DNA from: a virus
Direction: 5' to 3' (one strand)
Virus record (IMG/VR): IMGVR_UViG_3300048591_000173
Coordinates: 1-21,178 of that record
DNA: 21,178 nt
Both the position numbers and the translations under genes were made by a program. The notes under the pieces are model-generated. The model was not told the origin of the DNA and ran no database searches. It saw only the letters and a list, made by a program, of their open reading frames with translations. Below, piece after piece: positions 2,511-11,724 of the stretch. Position 1 is the first letter of the stretch; each line of letters opens with the position of its first letter.

Positions 2511-3887
2511 ATGGCCCTGACTGCACTCTTCACCGATGATGTCGAGAAGCGATTCTCGTCCACCCTGTCGGTGACGGGTGCCGGCGCATGGTGGCCGCTG
2601 GTCAATGAACCGTTTGCCGGAGCTTGGCAGCGGAACGAGGAAATCCACCAGGACACGGTGCTGGCCTACTCGGCCGTGTTCGCGTGCATCACGCTGGTAG
2701 CGTCAGACATCGCGAAGATGCGGCTGAAGCTGGTCAAGTACAATTCGTCCGATGGCATCTGGAACGAGGTCGACGCCAATTCCCCGTTCTGGCCGGTGCT
2801 GCGCAAGCCGAACCGTTATCAGACCCGGATCAAGTTCGTCGAGCAGTGGCAGGTGTCCAAACTGATCCACGGCAACACCTACGCGCTGAAGGTGCGCGAC
2901 GCGCGCGGGATCGTGACGGGCCTCTACATTCTGAACCCGTTCCGCGTGCAGGTGCTGGTGTCCGAGGACGGCGGCGTCTACTACCAGCTGTCGCAGGACG
3001 AGCTGAACGGCCAGCGCGAGGCCAGCATCACGGTGCCGGCGAGCGAGATCATCCACGACACGATGGTGTCGCTGTGGCATCCGTTGGTCGGGGTCTCGCC
3101 GCTGTACGCCTGCGGGCTTGCTGCGATGCAGGGCTTCAGGATTCAGCAGTCCTCGTCCAAGTTCTTCAAGAACGCGGCGATGCCGAGCGGCATCCTGTCG
3201 GCTCCGGGCACGCTTGATGCGGCCAAGGCGCGCGCCCTGTCTCAGCAGTGGAACGACGCCTACGGTGGCGACAAGTCCGGACGCGTGGCGGTGCTTGGTG
3301 ACGGCCTGAAGTTCGAGCCGATGACCATGACGGCCGTCGACGCGCAGATGATCGAGACCCTGAAGTGGACGGCCGAGGACGTTGCTCGGGCCTTCCGCGT
3401 GCCGGGGTACAAGATCGGGGTCGGCCAGATGCCGGCCTACAACAACATTGCCGCACTGGACCAGCAGTACTACAGCCAGTGCCTGCAGATCATGGTCGAG
3501 TCCATGGAACTGTGCCTGGATGAAGGCTTGGGCCTGACGAAGGTCGAGGGCCAGACGCTTGGCGTGGAGTTCGACCTGGACGACCTGATCCGGATGGACC
3601 CCGCGGCGCAGACCGACAACATCGAAAAGGGCATCAAGGCCGGAGCGCTGTCCCCGAACGAGGGGCGCCGCAAGCTGGGATACGGCCCGGTCAAGGGCGG
3701 CGAAAGTCCGTACCTGCAGCAGCAGAACTACAGCTTGGGCGCGCTCGCCGACCGGGATGCAACCAACCCCCTGGCTGCGCCGCCGCCTGCACCACCCCCG
3801 CCCCCGGAGCCCGAAGCCGATCCAGGCGAAATGGCGATGGCGTTTCTGACCGCAATCAAGAAGGGGCTGATCGCCGATGCAGCATGA
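2511..3887 (+). CDS. Portal protein (HK97 family)
   Basis: 458 residues, normal for HK97-type portals. The portal forms the dodecameric ring at one head vertex through which DNA is packaged and ejected, and it binds terminase and the connector proteins. Family hallmarks are the N-terminal segment AVFACITLVASDIAKMRLKL, the stretch HGNTYALKVRD, the basic/hydrophobic QQSSSKFFKNAAMPSGIL, and the late region TAEDVARAFRVPGYKIG followed by NNIAALDQQYYSQCL. The C-terminus carries a proline tract (about residues 422-435) and a short helix, probably flexible. ATG directly follows the TAA of the previous gene. The 3' end overlaps the next gene by 11 bases. Finding the portal after the capsid gene reverses the common terminase-portal-protease-capsid order. 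Confidence 0.95.
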   Translation: MALTALFTDDVEKRFSSTLSVTGAGAWWPLVNEPFAGAWQRNEEIHQDTVLAYSAVFACITLVASDIAKMRLKLVKYNSSDGIWNEVDANSPFWPVLRKPNRYQTRIKFVEQWQVSKLIHGNTYALKVRDARGIVTGLYILNPFRVQVLVSEDGGVYYQLSQDELNGQREASITVPASEIIHDTMVSLWHPLVGVSPLYACGLAAMQGFRIQQSSSKFFKNAAMPSGILSAPGTLDAAKARALSQQWNDAYGGDKSGRVAVLGDGLKFEPMTMTAVDAQMIETLKWTAEDVARAFRVPGYKIGVGQMPAYNNIAALDQQYYSQCLQIMVESMELCLDEGLGLTKVEGQTLGVEFDLDDLIRMDPAAQTDNIEKGIKAGALSPNEGRRKLGYGPVKGGESPYLQQQNYSLGALADRDATNPLAAPPPAPPPPPEPEADPGEMAMAFLTAIKKGLIADAA

Positions 3888-4872
3888 TCTGAGTCAGCTT
3901 GCCGGCGAGGTCATCGGCGCGGTCAAGGGGTACGTCGAGCGGGCGATGGCCGCGCTGTCGCCACGCGTGGACGCGCTTGAGCAGAAGCTCGCCACGCTGC
4001 CGGAGCCGAAGGACGGGAAGGACGCCGACATCGCTGATCTGATCCCGGTCATGGAGGCCGAGGTCGCCAAGCGGGTCGCCGAGATTCCGGCGCCGGAGCC
4101 CGGGAAGTCGGTCACGCCGGACGACGTTGCGCCCATGCTGCGCGAGCTGGTGATCGAAGCGGTCGCGGCACTCCCGCCGGCCAAGGACGGCAAGGATGCC
4201 GACCCGGAGCATGTGGCCACCCTGGTCGCTGAAGCCGTGGCCGCGCTGCCCGCCCCCAAGGACGGTACATCGGTCACCCTGGACGACGTGCGCCCGATCC
4301 TTGACGAGGTCGCCGCTGAGGCGATCACGCAGGCTAAGGGCGCCGCCGAGGCCGTAGCCGAGCGCGTGGCCGCCAAGCTGGTGTCGGAGATCCCGGTGCC
4401 CAAGGACGGCGAGGACGGTAAATCGGTCCAGCTTGAGGACGTGCTGCGGGCCATGGACGCCAAGATGGCCGATTGGGTCATCGGGTTCGAGCGCCACGCG
4501 CAGGGCGTGCTTGAGCGTGCCGCCGAGCGCATCCCCAAGCCAGCGGACGGCAAGGACGGGCTCGGCTTCGACGACATGACGGTTTCGGACGACGGCCTGG
4601 GCAACGTGACCATGCGATGGGAGCGCGGCGATCAGGTCAAAGAACACACGGTCCGGCTGCCGGTCATCGTGGACTGCGGCGTGTTCACTGAGGGCGAGTA
4701 CACCCGCGGCTCGGCGGTCACGTTCGGCGGCTCGCTGTGGATCGCGCAGAAGGATTCGCCCGAGGGTAAGCCCGGCCTGTCGCCGGACTGGCGCCTGGCG
4801 GTCAAGCGCGGCCGTGACGGCAAGGATGCGGACGTCCCGCCCGTGCCCCGCGGCCCGGTGAAGCTCAAGTGA
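3877..4872 (+). CDS. Repetitive collagen-like/helical protein with a carbohydrate-binding-like C-terminal domain; possible head fibre
   Basis: 331 residues. Residues 41-219 consist of about five irregular units of 25-48 residues. Each starts with a turn of the type P-x-P-K-D-G-K-D-A and continues as an Ala/Glu/Val-rich amphipathic helix (for example PPAKDGKDADPEHVATLV at 100-117 and PAPKDGTSVTLDDVRPILDE at 125-144). Similar turns recur at 220-228 and 312-319. Residues 266-311 (CGVFTEGEYTRGSAVTFGGS, later WIAQ and PDWRLAVKRGRDGKD) resemble the small CBM5/12-like domains often found in phage GRDGKDG proteins. The repeat pattern suggests a trimeric fibre. Its place directly after the portal, far from the tail-tip genes, makes a head fibre or neck appendage more likely than a tail fibre. 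That is inference. ATG 3877 overlaps the portal end. Confidence 0.7.
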   Translation: MQHDLSQLAGEVIGAVKGYVERAMAALSPRVDALEQKLATLPEPKDGKDADIADLIPVMEAEVAKRVAEIPAPEPGKSVTPDDVAPMLRELVIEAVAALPPAKDGKDADPEHVATLVAEAVAALPAPKDGTSVTLDDVRPILDEVAAEAITQAKGAAEAVAERVAAKLVSEIPVPKDGEDGKSVQLEDVLRAMDAKMADWVIGFERHAQGVLERAAERIPKPADGKDGLGFDDMTVSDDGLGNVTMRWERGDQVKEHTVRLPVIVDCGVFTEGEYTRGSAVTFGGSLWIAQKDSPEGKPGLSPDWRLAVKRGRDGKDADVPPVPRGPVKLK

Positions 4873-5198
4873 GGCTCGTTACGCTGGACAAGGCGCGGCT
4901 GGCGCTGCGCTACGACACGGGCGCCGACGACCTGTTGGCCGATGCCCTGGATGACGCCTCGAACGTCGTCCTGTCCTACGTCGACTCCGATGCCCTGACG
5001 GACACCTCGGGCATGATCCCGATTGACACGGCCGGCGACCCAGACGTTCCGCTGGCCGTACAGCGCGCGGTGATCTATCTGGCCGGCATCTTCCTGCGAG
5101 ACCCGGCCGGAATCGACAAGGACGACTATCGGGACGGCTTCATCCCGGCGCCGCTGCGCGCGCTGCTGAATCCGTACCGCACGCCGACGATGCGCTGA
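4869..5198 (+). CDS. Head-tail connector protein (HK97 gp6-like)
   Basis: 109 residues, the usual size of gp6-like head-tail connectors, which form a ring below the portal and seal the packaged head. The helical pattern fits the family: LDKARLALRYDTGADDLLAD, then ASNVVLSYVDSD, then VQRAVIYLAGIFLRDP, ending in the short tail PAPLRALLNPYRTPTMR, close to the family's typical LLxPYRxP end. The start is GTG at 4869, overlapping the previous TGA as GTGA. The next gene starts on the last base of its stop codon. Confidence 0.82.
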   Translation: MRLVTLDKARLALRYDTGADDLLADALDDASNVVLSYVDSDALTDTSGMIPIDTAGDPDVPLAVQRAVIYLAGIFLRDPAGIDKDDYRDGFIPAPLRALLNPYRTPTMR

Positions 5199-5542
5199 TG
5201 GCTACGCGCCAGCTCAATCCGGGCGACTTCCGTCACCGGGTCCAGATTCAGCGCCTCGCAACTAGCGAGGACACCAGCAACGCGATTCAGGAGGCATGGC
5301 TGCCGCTGGCTACGGTCTGGGCCGCGGTCGAGCCCATGTCGGCCCGAGAGCAAGTCGAGGCCCAGTCCATGCAGTCTGCTGTATCCGTTCGGATACGGAT
5401 CAGGCCGTTGGCCGGCGTGGATGCGGCCTGCCGGGTGATCTTCCGCGGCCAGACCTACAACGTCCATGGCGTGATTCCGGACCCCGTGTCCGGGCTTGAG
5501 TGGTGGACGTTGCCGTGCAGTGTGGGCAACAGCCCGGGCTAG
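5198..5542 (+). CDS. Head-tail joining protein (SPP1 gp16-like, Phage_H_T_join)
   Basis: 114 residues. The opening LNPGDFRHRVQIQR is typical of this family (pattern GxLRxRVTIQ). It is followed by WLPLATVWAAVEPMSAREQ, a strand-rich core (SVRIRIRPLAGVDAACRVIF), and RGQTYNVHGVIPDP near the end. These small beta-barrel proteins bind the portal/connector ring and close the head before tail joining. ATG 5198 shares one base with the previous stop (TGATG). Its last 43 bases overlap the first gene of the inserted glycosyltransferase cassette, so the cassette is tightly joined to the connector genes. Confidence 0.85.
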   Translation: MATRQLNPGDFRHRVQIQRLATSEDTSNAIQEAWLPLATVWAAVEPMSAREQVEAQSMQSAVSVRIRIRPLAGVDAACRVIFRGQTYNVHGVIPDPVSGLEWWTLPCSVGNSPG

Positions 5543-6048
5543 TCGCCTGTCTGGCGACAGGACCGAGCCTGCCCGGCCTGCTGGCCTCGCTGCCTGAGTC
5601 GGTCCCGACCATCACGGTCAATGATGCGTGGCGGCTGCGCCCCGACTGCGTGGCCCTGGTCGCGCAGGACGCGGCATGGTGGCGAGCGAACCCTGGGGCA
5701 GTCCGGATCGCCGGCCGCCGGTTCAGCGCGGCCAAGGTCGACCGGGTAGAGGAATTGCGGATCGGCGGCCTGTACACCGGCACGAACTCCGGTCTTGCCG
5801 CGCTGTACGTCGCCAAACTGCTCGGCTACACGAAGGCGCTGTTGCTGGGCTATGACATCGGCGGCGCGCACTACTTCGGTGCGCATCAGCACCCGCTCAA
5901 GAATCCCGGCCCGAACGACTTCGCCCGGTTCCTGGACCAGTTCAAGCGCGCGCGGCGGTCCCTGTCGGACATCGAGATTATCAACTGCACGCCGGGCAGC
6001 GCCTTGACGTGCTTCCCGTTCGCCAGCCTTTCGGAGGCCGTTCAATGA
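5500..6048 (+). CDS. GT42/DUF115-like glycosyltransferase, first paralogue
   Basis: 182 residues. Landmarks in order are VACLATGPSL (15-24), TITVNDAW (37-44), LVAQDAAWW (53-61), GTNSGLAALYVAKLLGY (94-110), ALLLGYDIGGAHYFGAHQHP (113-132) and IEIINCTPGSALTCFP (158-173). From memory these follow the same order as in CstII-type GT42 sialyltransferases and Maf/DUF115 proteins: GPSL loop, TSG helix, GYD strand, conserved HY..H region, and a late N-x-x-x-x-S-x-L motif. Related phage genes often carry the uninformative label norphogenetic protein. The likely role is sugar transfer from a nucleotide donor; donor and acceptor are unknown. The start is unsure: GTG 5500, 5503 and 5515 are all in frame, and all overlap the previous gene. 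The gene ends in an ATGA overlap with the next. Confidence 0.75.
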   Translation: MVDVAVQCGQQPGLVACLATGPSLPGLLASLPESVPTITVNDAWRLRPDCVALVAQDAAWWRANPGAVRIAGRRFSAAKVDRVEELRIGGLYTGTNSGLAALYVAKLLGYTKALLLGYDIGGAHYFGAHQHPLKNPGPNDFARFLDQFKRARRSLSDIEIINCTPGSALTCFPFASLSEAVQ

Positions 6049-6383
6049 AGTTGCAGGCAATCCGCGACATCAACTCCCGCACTCGCCCGAGCTTCAAGGC
6101 CGGCGAGGTTTTCGAGATCGACAGCGAGGCTGGCAAGGCATGGGTGAAGTCGGGTCTCGCCAAGGAGTACACCCCGCCGGCCGTAAAGCCCCGCGCTGGT
6201 CGGAAATCGCCTGCATCGCGTCCGGTCCCAGCCTCGTTGCCGCCGATTGCGCCCAGCTTCGAGGGTGGCGAGACCGAGCCCCAGGCCGAGCCGTCGTCAC
6301 CGTCAACCTCAGCTTTCGACTCGCTCCATGGGCTGACGTTCTCTACGCAGCCGACGTCAAATGGTGGCGACTCCACCACCTAG
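6045..6383 (+). CDS. Small SH3-like phage protein with a low-complexity tail overlapping the next gene
   Basis: 112 residues from ATG 6045, with GGAGG (6033-6037) 7 bases upstream and an ATGA overlap with the preceding stop. Residues 1-45 (MKLQAIRDINSRTRPSFKAG then EVFEIDSEAGKAWVKSGLAK) match the general pattern of short phage proteins with an SH3-like barrel: a Lys-rich first strand, a K-x-G-E-x-F-x-I turn, and a helix ending in G-L-A. From about residue 50 the sequence becomes Pro/Ser/Thr-rich. This part is read in a different frame over the N-terminal coding region of the second glycosyltransferase paralogue. The tail may therefore be a by-product of overlap rather than a folded domain. 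Function unknown. Confidence 0.65.
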   Translation: MKLQAIRDINSRTRPSFKAGEVFEIDSEAGKAWVKSGLAKEYTPPAVKPRAGRKSPASRPVPASLPPIAPSFEGGETEPQAEPSSPSTSAFDSLHGLTFSTQPTSNGGDSTT

Positions 6384-6832
6384 AGGCGCTTGCCGCCGAG
6401 GGTGAGAAGTGGACATGCAGCGGGGAGCCGCATCGGCTTCATGGCATCAACCGCTGCGAAGGCAAGATCGGACAGGGCCTGTGCCGGGACCCGCGCTACA
6501 TCCACACCGGCGGGAACAGCGGCTACCAAGCCGTGAACTTGGCCTACCACTTCGGCGCCCGGCGGATCATCCTGCTGGGCTACGACATGCAGCACACCGG
6601 CGGCAAGCGGCACTGGCACCCAGACTATCCAAGCGGCGCGGTCATCAACGGCGAGGTCGTCCGGATGGACAACGCGACGCCGGTCATCAACTGGCGCGGC
6701 CGGTTTTCGGCGCTGGCCAGAGACCTTGAGCGCGAATCCGTCGAGGTCGTCAACGCGACGCGAACCAGTGCCCTGCGCTGCTTCCCGCAGATGAAACTGG
6801 AGGCCGCGCTTGATCTGCCTGCCCTTGCGTGA
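6140..6832 (+). CDS. GT42/DUF115-like glycosyltransferase, second paralogue
   Basis: 230 residues, clearly related to the gene at 5500-6048. Landmarks are IACIASGPSL (23-32), VVTVN (52-56), VLYAADVKWW (67-76), GGNSGYQAVNLAYHFGARRI (124-143), ILLGYDMQHTGGKRHWHPDY (144-163) and VEVVNATRTSALRCFP (201-216). It has about 45 extra residues between the WW and GGNSG motifs, including Cys93, Cys106 and Cys115, which may bind metal or form a lid. Glycosyl transfer is inferred from the shared motifs. The only canonical in-frame start before the GPSL motif is ATG 6140. No good ribosome site is seen there, and 244 bases overlap the preceding gene in another frame. Translation by coupling or by -1 shifting from that gene is possible. 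Confidence 0.75.
   Translation: MGEVGSRQGVHPAGRKAPRWSEIACIASGPSLVAADCAQLRGWRDRAPGRAVVTVNLSFRLAPWADVLYAADVKWWRLHHLEALAAEGEKWTCSGEPHRLHGINRCEGKIGQGLCRDPRYIHTGGNSGYQAVNLAYHFGARRIILLGYDMQHTGGKRHWHPDYPSGAVINGEVVRMDNATPVINWRGRFSALARDLERESVEVVNATRTSALRCFPQMKLEAALDLPALA
6799..6812 (+). promoter_or_regulatory. Strong ribosome binding site for a TTG start
   Basis: GGAGG at 6799-6803 stands 6 bases before TTG 6810. No ATG lies in this frame before the conserved part. The optimal spacing decides for TTG as the start of the next gene, which overlaps the end of the preceding glycosyltransferase by 23 bases. Confidence 0.65.
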
Positions 6833-7184
6833 TGCGAGCTGGTCTGAGGTCGTGTCGCAGTTTCACGGGCACGGCGGGGCTCGTCAGGCGCTGGCCAACT
6901 GCCGCATCTGGGCGGAACGGTACGGGAAGCCGGACGAGGACTATCAGCGGTGCCGGGTCAAGCTGGAAAGCTGGTGCCACGCAACGCTGGGCGCGCACCT
7001 GGCCCGCATGGCTGAGATCGAGCCGCGGATGCTGACGGACGAGCTGCCGCGCTGCCACGGCCTGCCGATCACGGTCGTCCGTTGGGACGAGCGCATCGGC
7101 ATGATCGACGGGAAGCACCGGGCGAACTATGCGCTTCAGCATCCTGGCCTGTACGCGGTGCTGGTGATCGAGGCGCGCAAGTGA
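6810..7184 (+). CDS. ParB/sulfiredoxin-like protein of the glycosyltransferase cassette
   Basis: 124 residues starting at TTG 6810 behind a very good GGAGG site. The C-terminal third reads GLPITVVRWDERIGMIDGKH, then RANYALQHPGLYAVLVIEA. The I-D-G-K-H-R-A stretch followed by a strand is the signature of ParB N-domain/sulfiredoxin folds (D-G-x-H-R), where it binds nucleotide. The N-terminal part is helical with Cys30, Cys48, Cys56 and Cys82 and is not recognised. No DNA-binding helix-turn-helix is seen, so this is not a partition ParB. In its setting among glycosyltransferases a nucleotide-binding or NTP-using activity is plausible but unproven. It ends in a GTGA overlap with the next gene. Confidence 0.55.
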   Translation: MICLPLRDASWSEVVSQFHGHGGARQALANCRIWAERYGKPDEDYQRCRVKLESWCHATLGAHLARMAEIEPRMLTDELPRCHGLPITVVRWDERIGMIDGKHRANYALQHPGLYAVLVIEARK

Positions 7185-7837
7185 TCGTCTATACCGCGGT
7201 GTTCGGCAACACGGACCCGCTGTGTGAGCCTGCGGTCAAGACCGATGTTCGCATGGTCTGCTTCACGGACCAGCCGATCAAGTCAAGCCGGTGGGAGATC
7301 GTCAGGCTGCCGGTGTCCGAGGCGCCCAAGCGGGAGTCTCGCCGCTACAAGCAGCCGTCGCATCGGATCTTCCCCGATGCCGACCTGACCCTGTGGATCG
7401 ACTGCTGCTACACCCTGCTCATGGACCCGCGCGAGATCGCGGCCAGGAATCCGGGGCTGATCACCGCGTTCCGCCATCACCGCCGGGACCGGATCAAGGA
7501 CGAGGCCGAGGTCATCATCCGGTCCGGCAAGGGCAAGCGGGACGCGATCATGGCGCAGCTTGCCGCCTACCAGTCGGACGGGTGGGACACGGACGCGAAC
7601 CCCCAGCGGGCTATCCATTGCGGCGGCTTCCTGCTGCGCCGCCACACCCCGGAGGTGCGCGCCTTCAATGAGGCATGGCACCACGAAGTCCAGACCCGGA
7701 CCCTGCGGGATCAGATGTCCATCGATTACGTCGCGTCGAAAACCGGCGTGAAAATCGACAGGTTCACCGGGACATGTCGATCCAATCCCTATGCCCGGCT
7801 TGCGGTCATCCCGCGCAAGCCCACGAACGACTTCTAG
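7181..7837 (+). CDS. DUF616/TOD1-type glycosyltransferase
   Basis: 218 residues. The N-terminus VIVYTAVFGNTDPLCEP, then VRMVCFTDQ (23-31), SSRWEIVRLPV (35-45), SRRYKQPSHRIFPDADLTLW (53-72) and IDCC (73-76) follow the TOD1/MUCI70 (PF04765, DUF616) glycosyltransferase-like pattern: YTAxFGxxD, CFTD, W-x-I, a basic R-x-x-K-x-x-P-H segment and the W-I-D strand that usually holds the donor/metal site. A later GGFLLRRHTP and an RDQMSIDYV segment complete the fold. The start is GTG 7181 in a GTGA overlap with the preceding stop; upstream in-frame sequence is out-of-frame reading of the ParB-like gene. The next gene starts directly after its TAG. Sugar donor and acceptor are unknown. Confidence 0.8.
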   Translation: MIVYTAVFGNTDPLCEPAVKTDVRMVCFTDQPIKSSRWEIVRLPVSEAPKRESRRYKQPSHRIFPDADLTLWIDCCYTLLMDPREIAARNPGLITAFRHHRRDRIKDEAEVIIRSGKGKRDAIMAQLAAYQSDGWDTDANPQRAIHCGGFLLRRHTPEVRAFNEAWHHEVQTRTLRDQMSIDYVASKTGVKIDRFTGTCRSNPYARLAVIPRKPTNDF

Positions 7838-8521
7838 ATGCGAATCAGCCTGATCACCCCGACCGCTGACCAGCCGCTCGGGCTGAGCCTGCTGGAACGC
7901 TACATCGCCGCGCAGACCGTCAAGCCGGACGAGTGGATCGTGGCGGACGACGGCGACGTGCCGGCGACCCTGACCATGGGCCAGACGCACATCGTTCGGA
8001 AGCGGACGGAGCAGGGCGGCCGCAGTCTGGCGACCAACATGCTGGCGGCGCTTGAGGCCGTCACCGGCGACATCGTGATTGTGGCCGAGCATGACGACCT
8101 CTACCTGCCCAACCACATAGCCGAGTGCGTCAAGGGCTTGGCCAAGCAGGGGGCCTACGGGTGTCCGACCCTCTGCTACTACCACGTTCGCCTCCGGATA
8201 TGGGCTCAGATGAGAAACCGCGGTTCGGCGCTGTGCCAGACCGCCTTCCGGTCGAGCCTGATCCCGGACATGCGCCGATCCTGCGAAGCCGCCTACGCCG
8301 CCAACACCGGCTCGGTCGATTGGAAGTTCTGGGAGCCGCGGCAGCAACTGGCCAAGGGGCCGCAGACCGTCATCGGGATCAAGGGTCTGCCAGGGCGGGT
8401 TGGACTCGGCATCGGCCACCGCCCCAAGGACACCACGCAGCGCCGATGGAACAAGGACCCGCACATGATCAAGCTGAAGGAGTGGGCGGGAGCGCACTGG
8501 AAGGAATACGCCAAGTGCTGA
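7838..8521 (+). CDS. GT-A (family 2-like) glycosyltransferase
   Basis: 227 residues. The N-terminus RISLITPTADQPLGLSLLER, the strand EWIVADDGD (32-40), the run of substrate-loop residues RSLATNMLAALEAVTGD (62-78) and IVIVAEHDDLYLPNHI (79-94) are the standard GT-A elements. The EHDD at 84-87 is the DXD-type metal/nucleotide-sugar site. The C-terminal half (YYHVRLRIWAQM, NTGSVDWKFWE, LPGRVGLGIGHRP) is less typical and probably defines the acceptor. ATG directly abuts the preceding TAG, and the 3' end overlaps the next gene by 7 bases. Likely cytoplasmic, since no membrane segment is seen. The product sugar cannot be told from the sequence. Confidence 0.82.
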   Translation: MRISLITPTADQPLGLSLLERYIAAQTVKPDEWIVADDGDVPATLTMGQTHIVRKRTEQGGRSLATNMLAALEAVTGDIVIVAEHDDLYLPNHIAECVKGLAKQGAYGCPTLCYYHVRLRIWAQMRNRGSALCQTAFRSSLIPDMRRSCEAAYAANTGSVDWKFWEPRQQLAKGPQTVIGIKGLPGRVGLGIGHRPKDTTQRRWNKDPHMIKLKEWAGAHWKEYAKC

Positions 8522-9009
8522 TCACGCCGGAGTATCGGGAGCTGAACCGGGAGATGCACGCAAGGAAGGCCCGGTACGGAACCAGCGGCCACAAGTGGGC
8601 CAACTTCGTCACGTCCCTGGCCGCCATGACGGGCTCCGTTACGGTGCTGGACTACGGCTGCGGCAAGGGCACGCTGGCTGACGGTCTGACAGGGCTGACC
8701 GTGACGGGCTATGACCCTGCCATTCCAGGCAAGGACGCCATGCCTGGGCCTGCCGACATTGTGGTCTGCACGGACGTGCTTGAGCATGTCGAGCCTGAGT
8801 GTGTTGACGCGGTGATCGCGCATATCCGCTCGCTGACCAGAAAGGTGGCGTTGCTCCATGCCTGCTGTGTTGTCGGGGATCGTCTGCTTGCTGACGGCCG
8901 CCCGGCACATCTAACCGTCAAGCCTCCGGCCTGGTGGGCTTTCCGCATCGGCCGGCATGTTCCGGTCAAGTGCGGCGAGGACGAGTTCGCCTGCCTGATG
9001 CCCGCGTGA
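8515..9009 (+). CDS. Class I SAM-dependent methyltransferase (first)
   Basis: 164 residues from GTG 8515, with GGAAGGAA about 8 bases upstream. The N-terminus has ITPEYRELNREMHARKARYG then TSGHKWA. Motif I is VLDYGCGKGTLADGL (44-58), the acidic strand-2 region is GYDPAI (65-70), and PADIVVCTDVLEHVEPE (79-95) contains the post-motif-II helix. A late AHLTVKPPAWW (131-141) is common in phage methyltransferases of this type. It transfers methyl from SAM; the target is unknown. As it sits among glycosyltransferases, O- or N-methylation of a sugar is the natural guess. No DNA methyltransferase signature (DPPY or PC) is seen. Confidence 0.82.
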   Translation: MLITPEYRELNREMHARKARYGTSGHKWANFVTSLAAMTGSVTVLDYGCGKGTLADGLTGLTVTGYDPAIPGKDAMPGPADIVVCTDVLEHVEPECVDAVIAHIRSLTRKVALLHACCVVGDRLLADGRPAHLTVKPPAWWAFRIGRHVPVKCGEDEFACLMPA

Positions 9010-9494
9010 AGATCAACGCGGGGTGCGGTCGGCACAAGCTGCCGGGCTTCGTGAATGTCGACGTTCAGGGCGACCCGGACCTTACGGCCGACCTGCGCGC
9101 TATCCCGCTGCCGGACGGCTGCGCGGACGAGCTGCAGGCGATGCACGTCATCGAGCACTTCTACCTGTGGGAGACGCCCGCAGTCCTGACCGAATGGCGC
9201 CGGCTGCTGAAGCCAGGCGGCCGGCTGGTCCTTGAGCTGCCGAACCTTGAGGCGGCCTGCCGCAACGTCCTGGCCGGCCTGCCGGATCAGATGGGCCTAT
9301 GGCCTTTGTACGGCGACCCCAGCCACGCAGACCCGTTCATGTGCCACCGCTGGGCCTACACGCCCGCCAGCATCAAGGCCCTGCTCGCCGAGCACGGCTT
9401 CCGGTCGATCAAGATCCTGCCGCCGCAGACCCACGGGCGGCGGGCCAATCGCGACATGCGCGTGGAGGCGACCCGTGGCGACCATCCGCGTTGA
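9006..9494 (+). CDS. Class I SAM-dependent methyltransferase (second, type 11-like)
   Basis: 162 residues from GTG 9006, overlapping the preceding TGA as GTGA. INAGCGRHKLPGFVNVDV (3-20) is the motif I/II region of the small methyltransferases often found in glycan clusters (pattern LNxGCGxxxxxGxxNxD). LPDGCADELQAMHVIEHF (35-52) and LLKPGGRLVLELPN (67-80) follow in order. The short form lacks a separate target domain. The first methyltransferase and this one are different subfamilies rather than a recent duplication. The 3' end contains the ribosome site for the gp10-like gene and overlaps it by 20 bases, which locks the cassette into the structural operon. Confidence 0.82.
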   Translation: MKINAGCGRHKLPGFVNVDVQGDPDLTADLRAIPLPDGCADELQAMHVIEHFYLWETPAVLTEWRRLLKPGGRLVLELPNLEAACRNVLAGLPDQMGLWPLYGDPSHADPFMCHRWAYTPASIKALLAEHGFRSIKILPPQTHGRRANRDMRVEATRGDHPR

Positions 9495-9954
9495 GGGCCT
9501 GGCCGAACTTGGCCGCAGGCTCCGCGAGCTGCCGAAGGCCATTGCCGGAAAGGGTGGCGGCCCGCTGCGCTACGCCATCTTTCAGGCGGCCAAGGTCATC
9601 AAGGCGCAGGCCATCGCCAACGCGCCCGAGGACACCGGCCGGCTGAAGGCGAACATCGTCACGGCCCGGATGCGCAAGACGCCCGAGGGCCGCGAGGGCT
9701 ACTACATCGAGGTCCGCAGGAAGCGCCGGCACTACGCGCGCACCTCGGCCAATCGGCGCAAGGGGAGGGTCGGCAAGACCTACGAAACCCGCGACGCCTA
9801 CTACGGCATGTTCATTGAGTTCGGCACCGAGCGGAATCCGGCGCGGCCCTTCATGCGGCCGGCCTTCGACGCCAAGAAGGAACAGGCCGCCTATGCGTTC
9901 CGCGACGCGCTCAAGAAGGGGATCGAGATGGCCGTCAGGAAGATGAACAAGTGA
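9475..9954 (+). CDS. HK97 gp10-like head-tail/tail completion protein
   Basis: 159 residues from GTG 9475, with GGAGG (9464-9468) at 6 bases. It starts VATIRVEGLAELGRRLRELP. The hallmarks are APEDTGRLKANI (50-61), YYIEVRRKRRHYA (76-88), YYGMFIEFGTERNPARPFM (109-127) and RPAF (128-131). These match the HK97 gp10 family (PF04883; patterns APxDTGxLxxSI and YxxFxExGTxxxxAxPFxxPA), whose members act at the head-tail junction or tail end. This gene resumes the morphogenesis order after the cassette. Confidence 0.9.
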   Translation: MATIRVEGLAELGRRLRELPKAIAGKGGGPLRYAIFQAAKVIKAQAIANAPEDTGRLKANIVTARMRKTPEGREGYYIEVRRKRRHYARTSANRRKGRVGKTYETRDAYYGMFIEFGTERNPARPFMRPAFDAKKEQAAYAFRDALKKGIEMAVRKMNK

Positions 9955-10355: not shown

Positions 10356-10384
10356 AAAGCCCGGCATCTCGCCGGGCTTTTTTT
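10356..10384 (+). terminator. Intrinsic terminator before the tail tube gene
   Basis: AAAGCCCGGC (10356-10365) pairs perfectly with GCCGGGCTTT (10371-10380) around ATCTC, and TTTT follows to 10384. This is a strong rho-independent terminator. A second inverted repeat with the same arm sequence follows at once (10387-10400). Confidence 0.88.
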
Positions 10385-11005: not shown

Positions 11006-11386
11006 ATGAGTTCACTGACTTTTTTCACCAACGCGGCCAAGTGCCCCCCCGTGCCCCGCACGATCAAGTACGAAGGAAAGGAGTACACGTTCCTCGTCAA
11101 AAAGCTGAACGCCGGAGAGGCGGAGTCTGTTGGAGAGAAGGCGTACGGAGTCGGCGATAAGAAGGGAAAGAAGGCCGGCAACTTCCGATCCCGATGGATC
11201 GCGTCAGCCATCCTTGATGAGGACGGAACCGACAGGTTTTCTCTGAATATTGTTATCGGATGGCCGAACGACCTGGCTAATGCCGTGTTTGCCGAGGTAG
11301 CCGAGGTGAACAACCTGACGCGCAAGGACGATGACGACGAGGACGACGCGGGGGAAGCCTCGCCCGAGACGACAGACTCCGACTGA
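11006..11386 (+). CDS. Tail assembly chaperone, short form (lambda gpG-like)
   Basis: 126 residues from ATG 11006, with AGAGG 6 bases upstream. The beginning SSLTFFTNAAKCPPVPRTIK and the segment EYTFLVKKLNAGEAESVGE resemble chaperones that coat the tape measure before tube assembly. The end is very acidic (DDDDEDD). Inside this end the frame runs over GGGGG at 11350-11354, where a -1 shift would enter the downstream frame. Position between tail tube and tape measure is diagnostic. The gene is visibly less GC-rich than its neighbours (for example TTTTTTCACC near the start and AATATTGTTATCGG at 11246-11259) and has a C7 run at 11044-11050. Confidence 0.82.
   Translation: MSSLTFFTNAAKCPPVPRTIKYEGKEYTFLVKKLNAGEAESVGEKAYGVGDKKGKKAGNFRSRWIASAILDEDGTDRFSLNIVIGWPNDLANAVFAEVAEVNNLTRKDDDDEDDAGEASPETTDSD
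11350..11356 (+). promoter_or_regulatory. Predicted -1 ribosomal frameshift site
   Basis: In the chaperone frame the codons are GCG GGG GAA. The tRNA on GGG (11351-11353) can slip back one base onto an identical GGG (11350-11352), after which the -1 frame continues GGA AGC. It resembles the lambda G GGA AAG site, but only the P-site pairing is perfect after the slip. The -1 frame is open only from 11335, so the shift must occur between 11335 and 11384. Confidence 0.65.
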
Positions 11387-11724
11387 TCTTCAAGATCGCT
11401 CGGGAGTACAACCGGACGCCTTCCGAGCTGATGGCGTCCGTGTCGCCTCGGGAGTTACAGTACCTGATGACCTTCCACTCAAGGGAAGGCTTCACGGTCG
11501 AACGCACGGAGCTGGCGATTGCCATGCTCACAAGCGTTCAGATCAACAAGGTGTCCAAGAAGAAGGTCAAGCCGAAAGACGTAATGGCCTACGCCGATCC
11601 GTGGCGTGAGATCAAGAACAAGATCGGGCCATCGCCGGACGACGACCAAACCGTCCGAGATGCGTTCTTCGGCAGCGGCCTGCGCGTTGTTCGCGTGGAC
11701 CGTGTAACGCGCCAACCAATCTAG
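11353..11724 (+). CDS. Tail assembly chaperone, frameshift extension (lambda gpT-like)
   Basis: About 123 residues read in the -1 frame relative to the chaperone gene. The protein would be a G-T fusion of about 239 residues. The conserved-looking segment RLIFKIAREYNRTPSELMAS starts at 11380. No ATG, GTG or TTG exists in this frame between its opening stop (11332-11334) and ATG 11431, which lies after that segment. Frameshifting is therefore the best way to make it. The T part continues with SPRELQYLMTFHSREGF and KPKDVMAYADPWREIKNK. In lambda, the fusion recruits tail tube protein to the chaperone-coated tape measure. If translated separately from ATG 11431 it would be 97 residues with a poor ribosome site. 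Confidence 0.75.
   Translation, partial: GSLARDDRLRLIFKIAREYNRTPSELMASVSPRELQYLMTFHSREGFTVERTELAIAMLTSVQINKVSKKKVKPKDVMAYADPWREIKNKIGPSPDDDQTVRDAFFGSGLRVVRVDRVTRQPI
11377..11406 (+). other. Stem-loop downstream of the frameshift site
   Basis: CTCCGA (11377-11382) can pair with TCGGGAG (11400-11406, one bulged G). Inside it TGATCT (11384-11389) pairs with AGATCG (11393-11398) around TCA, with one G-U pair, leaving one C-C mismatch between the stems. It begins about 20 bases after the slippery run, farther than usual for a stimulatory structure, and it spans the zero-frame stop codon. Confidence 0.4.

Follow-up and report, generated by a model that had tools for sequence, protein, structure and literature searches.

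Eight consecutive open reading frames (ORFs), at positions 5500-9494 of the viral record IMGVR_UViG_3300048591_000173, form an enzyme cassette that lies among head-tail joining genes. This cassette is probably expressed late, as a module that glycosylates virion protein in the cytoplasm; both the glycan and its acceptor are predicted. The new element of the system is a predicted frameshift by which a small protein of the head segment would be joined to a Maf-like transferase; the case for it is strongest in relatives of this phage. The record is a linear IMG/VR fragment that was analysed over its entire length of 21,178 bases (hereafter the window), and the single near-identical contig was L003.

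The cassette and its enzymes

The gene order in the window is, from 5' to 3', a protease-capsid fusion (178-2130), portal, collagen-like protein, gp6-like adaptor, gp16-like head-closure protein, the eight ORFs of the cassette, gp10-like protein, gp17-like protein, major tail protein and tape measure. The cassette, its borders and the associated features are the following.

5198-5542, + strand: head-closure protein Hc1/SPP1 gp16-like (Phage_HCP), upstream border; PF05521 (2.9e-25), phrog_25 (1.4e-28)
5500-6048, + strand: DUF115a, first Maf/GT42-like transferase, 182 amino acids (aa), starting 43 bases within gp16; phrog_4603 (1.4e-32)
6045-6383, + strand: small protein (DUF7210-like) of 112 aa, tail rich in Ser/Thr/Pro, homologous in position to orf6.5 of Pseudomonas phage D3; phrog_2616 (4.4e-6) and family alignment
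6140-6832, + strand: DUF115b, second Maf/GT42-like transferase, 230 aa, ATG at 6140, in the -1 frame of 6045-6383; phrog_4603 (5.8e-47)
6140-6383, + strand: 244 bases shared by the small gene and DUF115b in two frames, from the ORF coordinates
6182-6188, + strand: C GTA AAG, a non-canonical heptamer at the equivalent of the D3 slippery site C CCA AAG, from a position comparison with D3
6810-7184, + strand: ParB/sulfiredoxin-like small protein, 124 aa; weak fold match, conserved neighbour of DUF616 in L021, L061 and L057
7181-7837, + strand: TOD1_MUCI70 (former DUF616) glycosyltransferase; PF04765 (3.5e-19)
7838-8521, + strand: GT-A family 2 (GT2) glycosyltransferase; PF00535 (2.8e-10)
8518-9009, + strand: S-adenosylmethionine (SAM) methyltransferase 1, start codon uncertain; PF13489 (1.4e-9), phrog_24759 (3.6e-20)
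9006-9494, + strand: SAM methyltransferase 2; PF08241 (6.8e-8), phrog_5399 (1.9e-5)
9475-9954, + strand: HK97 gp10-like tail-completion protein (HK97-gp10_like), downstream border; PF04883 (3.6e-5), phrog_5 (1.1e-17)
10359-10384, + strand: hairpin with a T-run after gp17, the first terminator-like element 3' of the cassette; spotted by eye, unflagged by the pattern scan

An earlier note on this DNA had described eight same-strand ORFs between the gp16-like and gp10-like genes, overlapping the structural genes at both ends. All eight were found on the + strand, DUF115a shares 43 bases with gp16, and methyltransferase 2 (to 9494) runs into the gp10-like gene (from 9475), whose start is most likely the GTG at 9475. 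The junctions within the cassette have either overlaps of 1-43 bases or a zero gap, the exception being the long overlap at 6140-6383. The note had also called the cassette free of terminators; a pattern scan detected neither promoter nor terminator patterns on the + strand between 2174 and 11722, and the hairpin listed above lies beyond gp17.

The matches to phrog_4603 (twice), PF04765 and PF00535 agree with the pair of DUF115-like enzymes, the DUF616-type and the GT-A transferase of that note, and the two methyltransferases are distinct, as each matched different Pfam and PHROG models. DUF115a and DUF115b are paralogues with 37% identity. Two labels fared less well. The ORF at 6810-7184 had been called ParB-like, for which support is weak: its AlphaFold model (pLDDT 82) gave sulfiredoxin (Srx) and ParB as best fold matches at Z ≤4.3. 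The label SH3-like for the small protein is better replaced by DUF7210/DUF7302-like; the copy in the window matches phrog_2616. None of the eight cassette proteins contains a membrane segment (hydropathy maxima 0.08-1.57). No strong match came from PDB sequence searches with TOD1_MUCI70, methyltransferase 2 and the small protein, and querying phage records at the DNA level with the entire cassette gave no match.

For DUF115b, an AlphaFold model (pLDDT 87) was compared to known structures. The nearest fold was the Maf flagellin glycosyltransferase 5mu5 (Z 15.7, rmsd 3.5, 187 residues aligned), followed by MptE (8sd5, Z 11.2), Cst-I (Z 10.9) and CstII (Z 10.7), showing a fold that is shared with the Maf/GT42/DUF115 superfamily over most of the domain. 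CstII was also retrieved by sequence for DUF115 (E 0.02-0.05), and phrog_4603, which DUF115b matches at 6e-47, is annotated as 'alpha-2,3-sialyltransferase'. Identity to Maf and to the GT42 enzymes Cst-I/Cst-II is 11-13%, and the phage enzyme has approximately 200 aa, whereas the Maf structure has 632 residues. Maf itself attaches sugar to Ser/Thr residues of a structural protein, in the cytoplasm. In an alignment of 16 divergent DUF115 copies, 13 columns, including D72, W75, W76, D149, H158 and N205, were invariant, which is consistent with an active enzyme. From its fold, DUF115 is predicted to be a sugar transferase.

Recurrence of the cassette in other phages

Searches of viral and bacterial contigs yielded more than 200 loci; these searches were seeded with cassette proteins and the counts below therefore refer to the loci retrieved and not to phages in general. 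Locus L022 has the order portal-collagen-gp6-gp16-[DUF115-DUF616-GT2]-gp10-gp17-tail, identical to that of the window with three cassette genes only, and in L021 the genes DUF115-ParB-DUF616-GT2, with others, are placed before gp16. The core of the cassette was found at three head-tail junctions: capsid to gp16, gp6 to gp16 and gp16 to gp10. The earlier note had proposed a check for gain and loss as a unit, and the outcome was positive for DUF616 with GT2: these two genes occur repeatedly beside a DUF115 gene, with and without the ParB-like and methyltransferase genes.

The identities of DUF616 and GT2 were correlated (rho 0.53, p 2e-4), and no correlation was seen between GT2 identity and that of portal, capsid or connector. 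Within the cassette, L022 is 61-76% identical to L059/L060; the portals of L022 and L059 are only 23% identical and their capsids are without match. Because cassette identities are decoupled from those of portal and capsid, the cassette, judging from these sequences, moves among phages with different heads and reappears in the same segment.

A recognised head or tail gene was present within 6 kb of 74 of the 93 non-redundant DUF115 copies and of 43 of the 52 copies with full flanks; 32 have head genes on the left and connector or tail genes on the right. The glycosyltransferase genes are in or near the virion structural operon. A Pfam tally of 136 ORFs near DUF115 in relatives gave methyltransferases (up to 19 per model), GT2 (13), FkbM (6) and GT-D (5), and also sulfotransferases, GT9, GT4, TylF, TupA and a pyruvyltransferase. 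Not one of the 136 has two or more membrane segments. Based on this tally and the lack of membrane segments, the neighbour set has the predicted profile of soluble glycan building and capping, unlike O-antigen conversion.

This profile bears on the idea that the cassette acts on the surface of the host (for superinfection exclusion or seroconversion) in the lysogen or late in infection, as the glycosyltransferases of phages often do and as is established for gtr-type cassettes. A similar proposal has been made for glycosyltransferase-kinase genes beside the portal gene in Gratiaviridae (PMC8008677), and the DUF115 homologue PmgO of phage P1 is dispensable for plaques, as a moron would be. Against this, neither the genes in the window nor the 25 neighbour Pfam families listed include a flippase, polymerase, membrane transferase or acyltransferase_3; multi-membrane neighbours, such as the flippase or integral membrane transferase of gtr/O-antigen systems, numbered zero, and the genes belong to a late head-tail operon, not to a moron that is expressed in lysogens. 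In D3, moreover, the O-antigen conversion genes presumably sit elsewhere in the genome. We consider a role at the host surface unlikely.

Hypermodification of phage DNA, the other role proposed for such genes, is far less probable. Glycosyltransferases of phages that act on DNA do exist (cited in PMC12619734). The fold and the neighbour families point instead to protein and polysaccharide glycosylation, and a base-modification gene is absent from the cassette: its products matched no gene for hydroxymethyl-base or modified-nucleotide synthesis in Pfam or PHROG, within a record that is a linear fragment of 21 kb.

DUF115 homologues are also present in the capsid-to-tail segment of the Pseudomonas phages D3/PMG1 (orf6.5, orf7, orf12, orf13), PAJU2 (ORF010-012) and Psp6, together with a methyltransferase and a phrog_6804 protein. 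The latter (L089:7748-8575, L090:7540-8367) stands beside DUF115 and the methyltransferase in D3, PAJU2 and Psp6 and has no Pfam match. Like the window, PAJU2 has a protease-capsid fusion and the order gp16-DUF115-...-gp10, whereas no match to TOD1_MUCI70, GT2 or the ParB-like protein was found in D3/PMG1, PAJU2 or Psp6. The fusion at 178-2130 is a single ORF of 650 aa comprising prohead protease and major capsid protein, as is PAJU2 ORF003 ('prohead protease fused capsid protein'), and a strong terminator-like hairpin (2150-2173) separates it from the next ORF. Further away, pmgO of phage P1 is a DUF115 homologue in a late operon (pmgN-pmgO-pmgP-ppp-pmgQ; hdmA-D in P7) that also encodes the glycosyltransferase PmgQ. 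This myophage operon adjoins baseplate and tail genes, not the capsid-connector genes, and the relative frame of the pmgN/pmgO overlap differs from that in the window and D3. The gene pmgN (L093:7496-7651), which overlaps pmgO, was essential by CRISPRi and nonessential by deletion (PMC10695390).

PAJU2 ORF010 was deposited as 'structural protein', a label given to only four ORFs of that phage, including the capsid, and P7 hdmB was deposited as 'head morphogenesis'. Both labels would fit DUF115 proteins that are mainly structural or assembly proteins and have lost catalysis, with the other transferases as passengers. The 13 invariant columns described above are as expected of an active enzyme, and PmgO is nonessential in P1, which makes a mainly structural role quite improbable.

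A candidate that was rejected is phrog_4603 as a common bacterial gene, since it was matched by 6 of 369 and 5 of 385 genomes, many of them weakly. One bacterial contig (L095, G003:C214:54132-54707) has a strong phrog_4603 match with one in-frame TGA.

The overlapping gene pair

The earlier note had treated the genes for the small protein and the second DUF115 enzyme as separate. They share 244 bases in different frames, and both this overlapping pair and the frameshift predicted in relatives were overlooked. The small protein belongs to a family of 27 members, four of which match DUF7210 and three DUF7302, with further matches to the phrog_2616/7993 families; a 'head-tail connector' PHROG is matched by four of the 27.

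The overlapping tail of the small protein is rich in Ser/Thr (24.6% observed versus 15.8% expected, Wilcoxon 3e-9, p-values being optimistic as the copies are related). The expectation was obtained by redrawing synonymous codons with the DUF115 protein held constant. No excess was found in the third frame, in the stretch past the stop of the small gene or in the matching region of DUF115 genes without overlap. This randomisation and these controls rule out that the Ser/Thr-rich tail is a by-product of overprinting. The frame of the tail is, in addition, open longer than expected. In the window the tail has 33% Ser/Thr versus 26% expected (p 0.03). A basic tail as the selected feature was rejected, K/R being below expectation across the overlap. 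Given the Ser/Thr excess and the family matches, including that to the head-tail connector, the small protein is a candidate glycan acceptor.

Start codons were surveyed in 91 non-redundant DUF115 copies with intact 5' regions. In 34 of these (about one third), ATG, GTG and TTG were all absent before the conserved motif. Overlap of such ORFs with the upstream small ORF was in the -1 frame in 32 of the 34, and in the other frame in 6. In 17 of the 32, the permitted stretch contained an X XXY YYZ heptamer in phase, its A-site occupied by A or T; codon shuffling predicted 1.95 (at most 6 in any of 300 shuffles), an approximately 9-fold excess, and other phases gave 4 to 5. The heptamers are of different types (G GGA AAA, A AAA AAG, C CCT TTA, T TTT TTG), so that, at the sequence level, the slippery property and not one fixed sequence is conserved among relatives.

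In D3, orf7 (DUF115) overlaps orf6.5, and the deposited start of orf7 at 5951 falls 3' of the conserved N-terminal motif at 5861. Among 50 distinct D3-like alleles the heptamer C CCA AAG did not vary at any of its 7 sites, whereas 42% of the sites upstream did. Variable sites track the orf6.5 frame 5' of the heptamer and the DUF115 frame 3' of it (p 1.6e-4). The public records of D3 and PMG1 list two separate genes without annotated slippage, and a full-text literature search, with most subscription papers outside its reach, found no report of a frameshift between the small protein and DUF115.

The ORFs without a start could instead initiate at rare codons (CTG, ATT), with the heptamers being incidental. 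Half of the no-start set has no canonical heptamer, and in most D3 alleles there is a TTG or GTG at 5813, where the annotated start of PMG1 lies. The -1 overlap in 32 of 34 copies and the phase-specific heptamer excess argue against rare starts, as do the invariant D3 heptamer, at which the periodicity switches, and two D3-like alleles with CTG at 5813 and no ATG, GTG or TTG upstream. Initiation at rare codons is thus not a likely explanation, and many relatives are predicted to make the DUF115 transferase as a -1 frameshift fusion to the small protein.

The window itself was ruled out as a canonical case of frameshifting, since at the site equivalent to that of D3 it has no such heptamer. DUF115b has its own ATG at 6140, with GAGG eight bases upstream. 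The overlap, the relative frame and the Ser/Thr-rich tail are retained, and the arrangement looks like a derived, separately started version, the direction of change being our interpretation.

The tail-assembly chaperone G/GT is a known case of a conserved -1 frameshift, by which a small phage protein gains a longer C-terminal part. There the product is an assembly chaperone, whereas the product predicted here is an enzyme fused to a head-tail-segment protein. The window also contains a tail-assembly-chaperone-like pair (11006-11724), the second ORF of which is open from 11335 in the -1 frame relative to 11006-11386; the overlap of this pair contains no canonical in-phase heptamer.

A proposed model for virion glycosylation

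The earlier note had proposed that the cassette makes a virion glycan, for example on the collagen-like appendage. The first part is the best reading of the data: the cassette is coherent in glycan modification, has a conserved position in unrelated phages, encodes predicted soluble proteins and includes a protein O-glycosyltransferase fold. The appendage as a general acceptor was not upheld, as the cassette phages L021, L059, D3 and Psp6 have no collagen-like match in the searched region. The collagen-like protein of the window (3877-4872) has KDGKDG-type repeats, and its conserved C-terminal segment is common to L018, L019, L022 and L055.

In the proposed mechanism the Maf/GT42-like DUF115 enzyme would, as its fold suggests, take a nucleotide-activated sugar, probably of the nonulosonic-acid type, out of the host pool and place it on Ser/Thr in a protein of the virion. 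From their families, the TOD1_MUCI70, GT2 and second DUF115 enzymes would lengthen or vary this sugar, which the two methyltransferases may then cap. What would bring the transferase to its target is a coupling, both genetic and physical, to the small DUF7210-like protein: in many relatives the predicted -1 frameshift fusion to the N-terminal domain of that protein, in the window an overlapping gene that has its own start. The acceptor would most likely be the Ser/Thr-rich tail of the small protein in its unshifted form, or an adjoining capsid or connector protein to which the small protein binds, and the likely purpose would be shielding of the particle or tuning of adsorption. A more specific version, which we put forward tentatively, is a one-gene, two-product system: the Ser/Thr-rich tail would be the acceptor, the -1 frameshift would swap it for the transferase, and the shared N-terminal domain would bring a low, fixed share of enzyme to the particle as it assembles; one stretch of bases, read in two frames, would encode both the acceptor tail and the enzyme motif.

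Several points weigh against virion glycosylation or the frameshift coupling. A glycan or acceptor was observed in no case. DUF115 scores below the curated Pfam cut-off for the MptE-like family PF01973 (22.1 versus 34.6 bits). MptE, moreover, acts as a pterin kinase, and the predicted transferase activity therefore follows from the fold. Canonical heptamers are missing in 15 of the 32 no-start relatives, a stimulatory RNA structure was not found (mean folding z -0.35, 18 sites) and a regular upstream Shine-Dalgarno signal was absent, GGAG/GAGG being occasional only. As the window has no canonical slippery site, frameshifting is predicted for relatives rather than for this phage. In P1, pmgO was nonessential by CRISPRi and deletion (PMC10695390), and PmgO is unnamed in the P1 virion proteome paper (PMC9024508). 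The cassette is, in the P1 case, dispensable for plaques on laboratory hosts.

A functional parallel is found in mycobacteriophages. Freeman et al. 2023 reportedly described virion glycosylation in Che8, Rita and others, as far as can be told from citing papers; glycans on capsid and tail tube and phage-encoded glycosyltransferases are the likeness to this cassette. Glycosylation of the virion at capsid and tail tube is reported for mycobacteriophages (cited in PMC12619734 and PMC11256854). The glycosyltransferase genes of Maravista differ from the cassette in lying near the 3' end of the genome and not among head-tail joining genes, and frameshift coupling is unmentioned in the citing-paper passages.

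Few cases of virion glycosylation are known in phages. The analysis links head-tail assembly to a recurrent and variable enzyme cassette that occurs in D3, a classic laboratory phage, and has a homologue in P1; it also predicts a specific recoding event that is directly testable in D3. Annotations such as 'hypothetical' and 'sialyltransferase' are turned into a testable question: whether particles are sugar-coated, on which protein, and whether the enzyme is dosed by frameshifting. Such coats may affect adsorption, particle stability and the recognition of phages by antibodies.

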